Shown piece by piece: positions 1,908 through 4,019 of a DNA stretch of 37,711 nt. Numbering within the stretch: the first letter of the stretch is position 1; each line of letters begins with the position of its first letter. Under the pieces are notes generated by a model. The model saw only the letters and a program-made list of their open reading frames with translations, did not search any database and was not told where the DNA came from. Where the stretch lies: positions 1 to 37,711 of the forward strand of contig CAIXIX010000337.1 in the NCBI GenBank assembly GCA_903919615.1, read 5' to 3'. This DNA comes from an uncultured Chthonomonas sp. (GTDB lineage Bacteria > Armatimonadota > Chthonomonadetes > Chthonomonadales > Chthonomonadaceae). Made by a program: the position numbers and the translations under genes.

Positions 1908-1939
1908 GGGAAGGGCGATGAGCCCTTCCCTTTCTTTTT
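1908..1939 (+). terminator. Intrinsic terminator after the exported oxidoreductase
   Basis: A perfect 9-bp stem, GGGAAGGGC (1908-1916) with GCCCTTCCC (1922-1930), encloses a five-base loop and is followed by TTTCTTTTT. This is a standard rho-independent terminator that separates the oxidoreductase from the purH leader. Confidence 0.85.
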
Positions 1940-2056: not shown

Positions 2057-2084
2057 TTGCGGCGATTCAGCTTTATGGTATCCT
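2057..2084 (+). promoter_or_regulatory. Candidate sigma70-type promoter for purH
   Basis: TTGCGG at 2057-2062 and TATCCT at 2079-2084 are separated by 16 bases. Transcription would begin near 2091, just before the first helix of the riboswitch at 2105, which is where a leader RNA should start. The hexamers are imperfect and the site is inferred from position. Confidence 0.4.
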
Positions 2085-2104
2085 AACTACATAAATCTTT
2101 ACAC

Positions 2105-2214
2105 CGCAGACAACTGGCGTTCACAGGGAATACCCTGGGGGAGTCTGCGATGAGCATTTGCCGCGCGCCTGGGCCCTCAGCAAACAACAGCACGAGAGGA
2201 GTCCGGGCTTTTTT
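2105..2214 (+). ncRNA. ZTP (pfl-type) riboswitch with intrinsic-terminator expression platform
   Basis: The leader fits the ZMP/ZTP-sensing pfl RNA class. Helix P1 is CGCAGAC (2105-2111) with GTCTGCG (2143-2149), 7 perfect bp. Inside it lies the conserved CTGGCG-like strand (2114-2119), then P2 CAGGG (2124-2128) with CCCTG (2133-2137), then GGGGGAG. The second conserved domain, CCGCGCGCCTGGGC, is at 2161-2174. GCCTGGGC (2167-2174) can pair over 8 bp, two of them G-U, with GTCCGGGC (2201-2208), directly before six T residues (2209-2214). Aptamer folding and terminator formation therefore compete for the same bases, so ligand binding should allow read-through. This class is known upstream of purine and folate genes; ZMP (AICAR) is the substrate of PurH. 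Confidence 0.88.
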
Positions 2215-2243
2215 GTGCCCGAACGCCAGAAAGGAAGCCTGGT

Positions 2244-3866
2244 ATGAGCCAGAGTAACGTTGCATCGAGGCAAAAAAGAGCGCTGATCAGCGTCTCAGAC
2301 AAAACGGGACTTATCGATTTTGCCGCTGCATTGAGCGGCCTCGGATTCGAGATTGTCTCCACGGGAGGCACCGCTAGCGCTATCGCAGCTGCGGGTGTTC
2401 CGGTCATAAACGTTAGCGAAGTCACTGGCTTTCCCGAGATGCTCGAAGGCCGCGTTAAGACGCTTCATCCGGCAGTTCACGGCGGCCTGCTGGCACGACG
2501 AGACGTTGTAGAGCATATGGAGACCATTGCGGCGCATGGCATTAAGCCGATCGACCTGGTCTGCATCAACCTGTATCCCTTCGTTACCACCGTAAGCAAA
2601 CCTGGCGTTACGCTGGAAGATGCGATCGAGAACATCGACATCGGCGGCCCCGCAATGATCCGCTCTGCGGCCAAGAATCATGAGAGCGTTGCAGTAGTGG
2701 TCCATGCGGCTGACTATAATGGCGTTATCGCGGAGCTTACCGAGAATGGTGGCGAGCTTACGCTGAAGACGAAGCGTAACCTTGCCGCAAAGGCGTATGC
2801 TCACACGGGCCAGTACGATGCGACGATTAGCCAATGGCTAGCATCTCGATTCGCTGCGGATGGTGACGCGAGCCTCGCGTTCCCGTCGGAGATCGCACTG
2901 GGATACAAGAAGGCCCAGGACTGCCGATACGGCGAAAATCCGCACCAGAAAGCTGCCTTCTACGTTCAATCCGGTATCAAAGAGCCGTCTGTTGCGACAG
3001 CAGTTCAACTGCATGGTAAAGAGCTCTCGTTCAACAACTACTACGATCTGAATGGGGCGCTCGAAACGGTAAAAGAGTTTAGCGAAGAGGCCCAACCAGC
3101 GGCAGTCATCGTAAAGCACACGAACCCGTGCGGCGCGGCGCTTGCAGACACGCTCGCTGAGGCGTTCTTGAAGGCACGACTGGGAGATCCGATCTCCGCT
3201 TTCGGCGGTATTCTGGCCGTAACGCGACCTCTCGATGCCGCAACCGCCGAGCAGATAACGGGTAAGAACACCTTCTTCGAAGCGATTATCGCGCCTTCCT
3301 TCGATGAGGATGCGATCCCGATCCTTACTGGGAGAAAGAAGTGGGGAGCGAACCTGCGCCTGTTAAAGGTCGGCGATCTTAAGGGATGGCGAGAACTCGC
3401 CGCATCGAGCGGGCTCGACTACAAGCGAGTTGTCGGTGGAGCGCTGCTTCAGCAGCCGGATCACCTTGTACTCTATGAAGCCGATCTGAAGGTGGTAACG
3501 GAACGGGCGCCAACCGCAGCAGAGATTGAAGAGCTCCTCTTCGCCTGGAGAATCGTTCGTCACGTGAAGAGCAATGCGATTGTGTTCACGAAGGACAGGC
3601 AGGTAATCGGGGTCGGCGCGGGGCAGATGAACCGCGTACGCAGCGTAAAGCTCGCTGTGGAGCAGGCCGGCGGCGAGGCCAGCGGAGCGGTAATGGCATC
3701 CGACGCCTTCTTCCCGTTCCCGGATGGACCGGAAGCGGCCGCGGCGGCCGGGATCACTGCGATCATCCAGCCGGGCGGATCGGTGAAAGATGCGGAGACG
3801 ATAGAGGTCGCGAACAAGAACGGCATCGCGATGGTGTTTACGGGAATTCGTCACTTCCTGCACTAA
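2244..3866 (+). CDS. purH: Bifunctional AICAR transformylase / IMP cyclohydrolase PurH
   Basis: This enzyme catalyses the last two steps of de novo purine synthesis: AICAR plus 10-formyl-THF to FAICAR, then ring closure to IMP. It is 540 residues, slightly longer than the usual 510-530. The N-terminal MGS-like cyclohydrolase domain shows STGGTAS (39-45) and the KTLHPAVHGG signature (72-81). The transformylase domain shows RYGENPHQ (228-235) and the catalytic KHTNPCG (291-297, Lys291 and His292). The ATG at 2244 follows AGGAAG with a six-base gap. The gene is alone on its transcript, behind the ZTP riboswitch and ahead of a strong terminator, so ZMP/ZTP (accumulating when 10-formyl-THF is short) should induce it. 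Function is certain from the motifs. Confidence 0.98.
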   Translation: MSQSNVASRQKRALISVSDKTGLIDFAAALSGLGFEIVSTGGTASAIAAAGVPVINVSEVTGFPEMLEGRVKTLHPAVHGGLLARRDVVEHMETIAAHGIKPIDLVCINLYPFVTTVSKPGVTLEDAIENIDIGGPAMIRSAAKNHESVAVVVHAADYNGVIAELTENGGELTLKTKRNLAAKAYAHTGQYDATISQWLASRFAADGDASLAFPSEIALGYKKAQDCRYGENPHQKAAFYVQSGIKEPSVATAVQLHGKELSFNNYYDLNGALETVKEFSEEAQPAAVIVKHTNPCGAALADTLAEAFLKARLGDPISAFGGILAVTRPLDAATAEQITGKNTFFEAIIAPSFDEDAIPILTGRKKWGANLRLLKVGDLKGWRELAASSGLDYKRVVGGALLQQPDHLVLYEADLKVVTERAPTAAEIEELLFAWRIVRHVKSNAIVFTKDRQVIGVGAGQMNRVRSVKLAVEQAGGEASGAVMASDAFFPFPDGPEAAAAAGITAIIQPGGSVKDAETIEVANKNGIAMVFTGIRHFLH

Positions 3867-3973: not shown

Positions 3974-4019
3974 AAAAAAACCGCGGAGCAGATCGATTTG
4001 ATCTGCTCCGCGGTTTTTA
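3974..4019. terminator. Strong bidirectional terminator between convergent genes
   Basis: A perfect 14-bp stem (3981-3994 with 4000-4013) and a five-base loop are flanked by seven A on the left (3974-3980) and five T on the right (4014-4018). It works on both strands and separates purH from the convergent oxidoreductase. Confidence 0.93.

Follow-up and report, generated by a model that had tools for sequence, protein, structure and literature searches.

A predicted ZMP/ZTP-sensing ON-switch with an overlapping terminator before a stand-alone purH gene from Armatimonadota

Does the leader of purH in this Chthonomonas contig contain a riboswitch, and how could the element that senses the ligand be coupled to the decision to transcribe the gene? 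A first-pass annotation of the window (the whole stretch of DNA analysed, 37,711 nucleotides) had proposed a ZTP riboswitch whose sensing element and off-switch exclude each other, placed before a stand-alone purH. Our analysis indicates that the leader is very probably a ZMP/ZTP-sensing transcriptional ON-switch of a single-gene purH unit, the layout being read from the sequence and the ligand-dependent steps being drawn by analogy from studied members of the class.

The aptamer and the gene that follows it

When the whole window was searched with cmscan, Rfam 15 gave a single match above its gathering score, namely the ZMP/ZTP riboswitch aptamer (pfl motif, RF01750) at 2100..2181 on the plus strand, with 54 bits against a gathering score of 39, an E-value of 3.2e-6 and an alignment over the full model (1-86). 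A match to the pfl/ZTP covariance model, which the first-pass annotation had left to be sought, was thereby obtained, and the elements it had named by eye (P1, P2, CTGGCG, GGGGAG and the distal GCCGCGCGCCTGGGC) could all be located at exact coordinates. According to the cmscan alignment, P1 is formed on the plus strand by CGCAGAC (2105-2111) and GTCTGCG (2143-2149) and encloses P2 (CAGGG, 2124-2128, with CCCTG, 2133-2137); the junction strands CTGGCG (2114-2119) and GGGGAG (2138-2143) lie inside P1, and P3 consists of GCC (2160-2162) and GGC (2172-2174). For the pseudoknot we relied on the structure already established for this class (PMC10085676) and on the complementarity found here: the conserved strands CUGGCG and CGCCUGGGC can form it through the complementary segments GGCG (2116-2119) and CGCC (2166-2169). 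Folding of short transcripts gives pair probabilities >0.9 for P1 and P2 (2105-2149), and the folding energy of the aptamer shows no excess over shuffles. The source genome has one copy of the aptamer.

The aptamer is followed by a purine/one-carbon gene, purH (2244..3866, plus strand), which encodes a bifunctional AICAR formyltransferase / IMP cyclohydrolase of 540 aa and was identified by the NCBIfam equivalog models TIGR00355 (664.8 bits, cut-off 528) and NF002049 (726.4 bits, cut-off 402). Its probable ribosome-binding site, read from the sequence, is AAGGAAG at 2231..2237 on the same strand. The description of purH as a stand-alone gene agrees with our results, since it is the only gene between two terminators. 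One of them (1908..1930, plus strand; a 9-pair stem with TTTCTTTTT) belongs to the upstream gene and separates it from the purH unit; the upstream frame (454-1842) lies on the same strand as purH and resembles Gfo/Idh-type oxidoreductases, with matches below cut-off. The other (3976..4018), a 20-pair stem with a T-tract that is visible as an inverted repeat and usable on both strands, stands after purH and faces a gene on the opposite strand. A promoter before the aptamer is not established: the best site, TTGCGG-16-TATCCT, has only 7/12 matches. This weak promoter-like site coincides with position 2057, at which the first-pass annotation had let the element begin.

A terminator that shares its strands with the aptamer

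Downstream of the aptamer core we predict an intrinsic terminator at 2167..2214 (plus strand), with a 12-bp stem in which GCCTGGGCCCTC (2167-2178) pairs with GAGG (2196-2199) and GTCCGGGC (2201-2208), leaving A 2200 bulged; the complete 3' arm thus reads GAGG-A-GUCCGGGC (2196-2208). The stem is followed directly by TTTTTT (2209-2214), and the hairpin alone folds at -21.8 kcal/mol. The terminator shares positions 2167-2174 with the aptamer, including all of the P3 3' strand (2172-2174). The 5' arm of the terminator also serves as the final strand of the aptamer (the 3' strand of P3 with most of the pseudoknot strand), which makes the two structures mutually exclusive. Such a terminator, sharing the P3 3' strand and followed by a U-run, is what characterizes an ON-switch of the pfl type. 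The eight-base pairing before six T residues, on which the first-pass annotation had based the mutual exclusion, is present and includes two G-U pairs, although the stem exceeds the stated length by four pairs; the overlap itself is seen at 2167-2174 and is kept in relatives. Our analysis refines that picture in one respect, as the terminator strand takes not only P3, but also all but one base of the four-base pseudoknot strand CGCC (2166-2169).

When the sequence beyond P3 was shuffled 200 times, 7% of the shuffles yielded a stem as good and none a stem plus T-tract as good. The energy of the hairpin alone is unexceptional for a G+C-rich sequence (equalled by 20 of 200 shuffles); the case rests on the comparative evidence described below. 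In folds of growing transcripts P1 and P2 are in place by 2150, P3 is partial at 2176 (probability 0.58), and the terminator fully displaces P3 once 2206 has been transcribed, with a probability near 1.0 from there on. A transcript ending at 2214 is 12.5 kcal/mol more stable in the terminator state than with P3 formed, with the pseudoknot and the ligand not counted. Since these calculations include neither ligand nor pseudoknot, they show only the competition of the two states and termination as the ligand-free default.

Conservation among relatives

Analysis of 31 genomes of the same order revealed one aptamer each in 22 of them. With a readable leader defined as at least 300 bases, 25 purH genes of the order qualified, and aptamer strings were found upstream of 21. 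The leaders of the remaining four (L118, L123, L129 and L135) lack the aptamer and gave no Rfam match to other RNA families at E 0.1 or better; the existence of these four genes implies a loss or gain of the switch inside the order. In 19 of 30 loci we found a strand that can pair with the 3' strand of P3, each matched by at most 2.5% of shuffles, and in many of these 19 it is followed by a T-tract.

The sequence of the upper terminator stem varies from genus to genus, with the pairing retained. For 14 genus representatives the summed duplex energy is -83.9 kcal/mol, compared with -45.7 kcal/mol (sd 7.2) after swapping of the 3' arms among the genera, and none of 20,000 permutations of the 3' arms was as good as the observed combination; this figure is approximate, because we set the limits of the arms by hand around the invader and their lengths differ. 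The compensatory change in the upper stem between genera argues that the terminator is under selection and not a chance hairpin.

Three loci from one genus of the same family (L022, L023 and L024) possess the P3-complementary strand with no clear U-run behind it, and the switch of that genus may therefore not end in an intrinsic terminator. In L028 (632-1622, minus strand) a ZTP aptamer (43.6 bits) immediately precedes a frame of 280 aa whose beginning resembles that of a type IV prepilin (MRRTFTLIELLVVIAIIAILAAILFPVFAQ); no purine or one-carbon gene adjoins it, and this is an unexpected neighbour for the ZTP class. In more distant genomes of the phylum (L004, L011, L016 and L027) the aptamer precedes frames that we read by eye, from the translated start, as glyA-like (serine hydroxymethyltransferase).

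Alternative readings of the leader

Recognition of an aptamer by a covariance model could also be reconciled with a decayed riboswitch, in which the binding of ZMP/ZTP has been lost and the terminator goes on to attenuate transcription constitutively. We consider such decay extremely improbable: the conserved core (ACUGGCG, GGGGAG and GCCG..CGCCUGGGC) agrees with the model consensus in the cmscan alignment, and the score of 54 bits falls well inside the range of 41 to 64 bits observed among the relatives.

Another reading is raised by GAACGCCAG (2221-2229), which lies just before the ribosome-binding site and is perfectly complementary to CTGGCGTTC (2114-2122) of the aptamer core. If these strands paired after read-through, they would open the aptamer and alter access to the purH start, so that the RNA would act also, or mainly, on translation; alternatively, the helix could add a further level of control, specific to this lineage, by opening the aptamer once the terminator has been passed and thereby releasing the ligand or tuning the translation of purH. 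Apart from the exactness of the nine-base match, the fold of the complete leader, which uses this helix at a probability near 1, and the shuffles of the window leader, of which 0.5% contain a complement as good, speak for such pairing. The same fold, however, leaves the start codon unpaired and the ribosome-binding site only partly paired, and no comparable complement exists in the other 29 leaders, that of the same genus included; with 30 leaders examined, a single coincidence of this kind is unsurprising. As a conserved second switch the helix was rejected, being present in 1 of 30 leaders. Given its absence from the other 29, the complement is most likely due to chance, judging from the leaders compared; an action on translation appears very unlikely to us, and we attach very little credence to a second regulatory layer.

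Proposed mechanism and relation to known systems

In the transcriptional ON-switch that we favour, the strand 2196-2208 would, at low ZMP/ZTP, pair with the P3 3' strand as it leaves the polymerase and then migrate into the pseudoknot strand, completing the terminator, whereupon transcription would end in 2209-2214. High ZMP/ZTP, which would arise when the purine pathway is stalled or 10-formyl-tetrahydrofolate is short, would lock P3 and the pseudoknot, block the terminator and allow purH to be read, and the PurH made in this way would consume ZMP. For the feedback loop of the first-pass annotation, the most fitting description is an ON-switch in which the substrate induces the enzyme that uses it, and the enzyme then lowers the ligand.

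When the pfl motif was described in 2010, purH was one of the genes most often associated with it; terminators were seen to overlap the 3' region of the motif, and an ON-switch function was predicted (PMC2864571). Later work identified ZMP/ZTP as the ligand (PMC7266159). The element in the window has the same aptamer above the gathering score, purH directly downstream and a terminator overlapping the 3' end; compared with RF01750 elements upstream of purH the layout is identical, and only the lineage (Armatimonadota) differs. In the pfl riboswitch of Clostridium beijerinckii, a model system for strand displacement, an invader captures the 3' strand of P3, advances through the pseudoknot and completes the terminator, an outcome that is prevented when the ligand stabilises the aptamer (PMC10085676). 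The same layout (invader against the P3 3' strand, pseudoknot, terminator and U's) is seen here at the level of sequence, but the C. beijerinckii element controls pfl, whereas that of the window precedes purH and its invader forms two G-U pairs and leaves an A bulged. A common wobble pair in the purH-regulating invaders of Clostridium raises ON-state expression (PMC10085676), and by analogy the G-U pairs and the bulged A may tune the switch described here.

The leader is an ordinary representative of a well-known riboswitch class, and purH is one of the gene contexts best known for that class; the pairing with purH is already known in other bacteria, and what is known of the class is unchanged. 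For the lineage itself, the switch would place purH under the known ZMP/ZTP alarm signal, and the comparison of genera suggests that a strand-displacement terminator has been kept, with compensatory changes, across an order distant from the studied Firmicutes.
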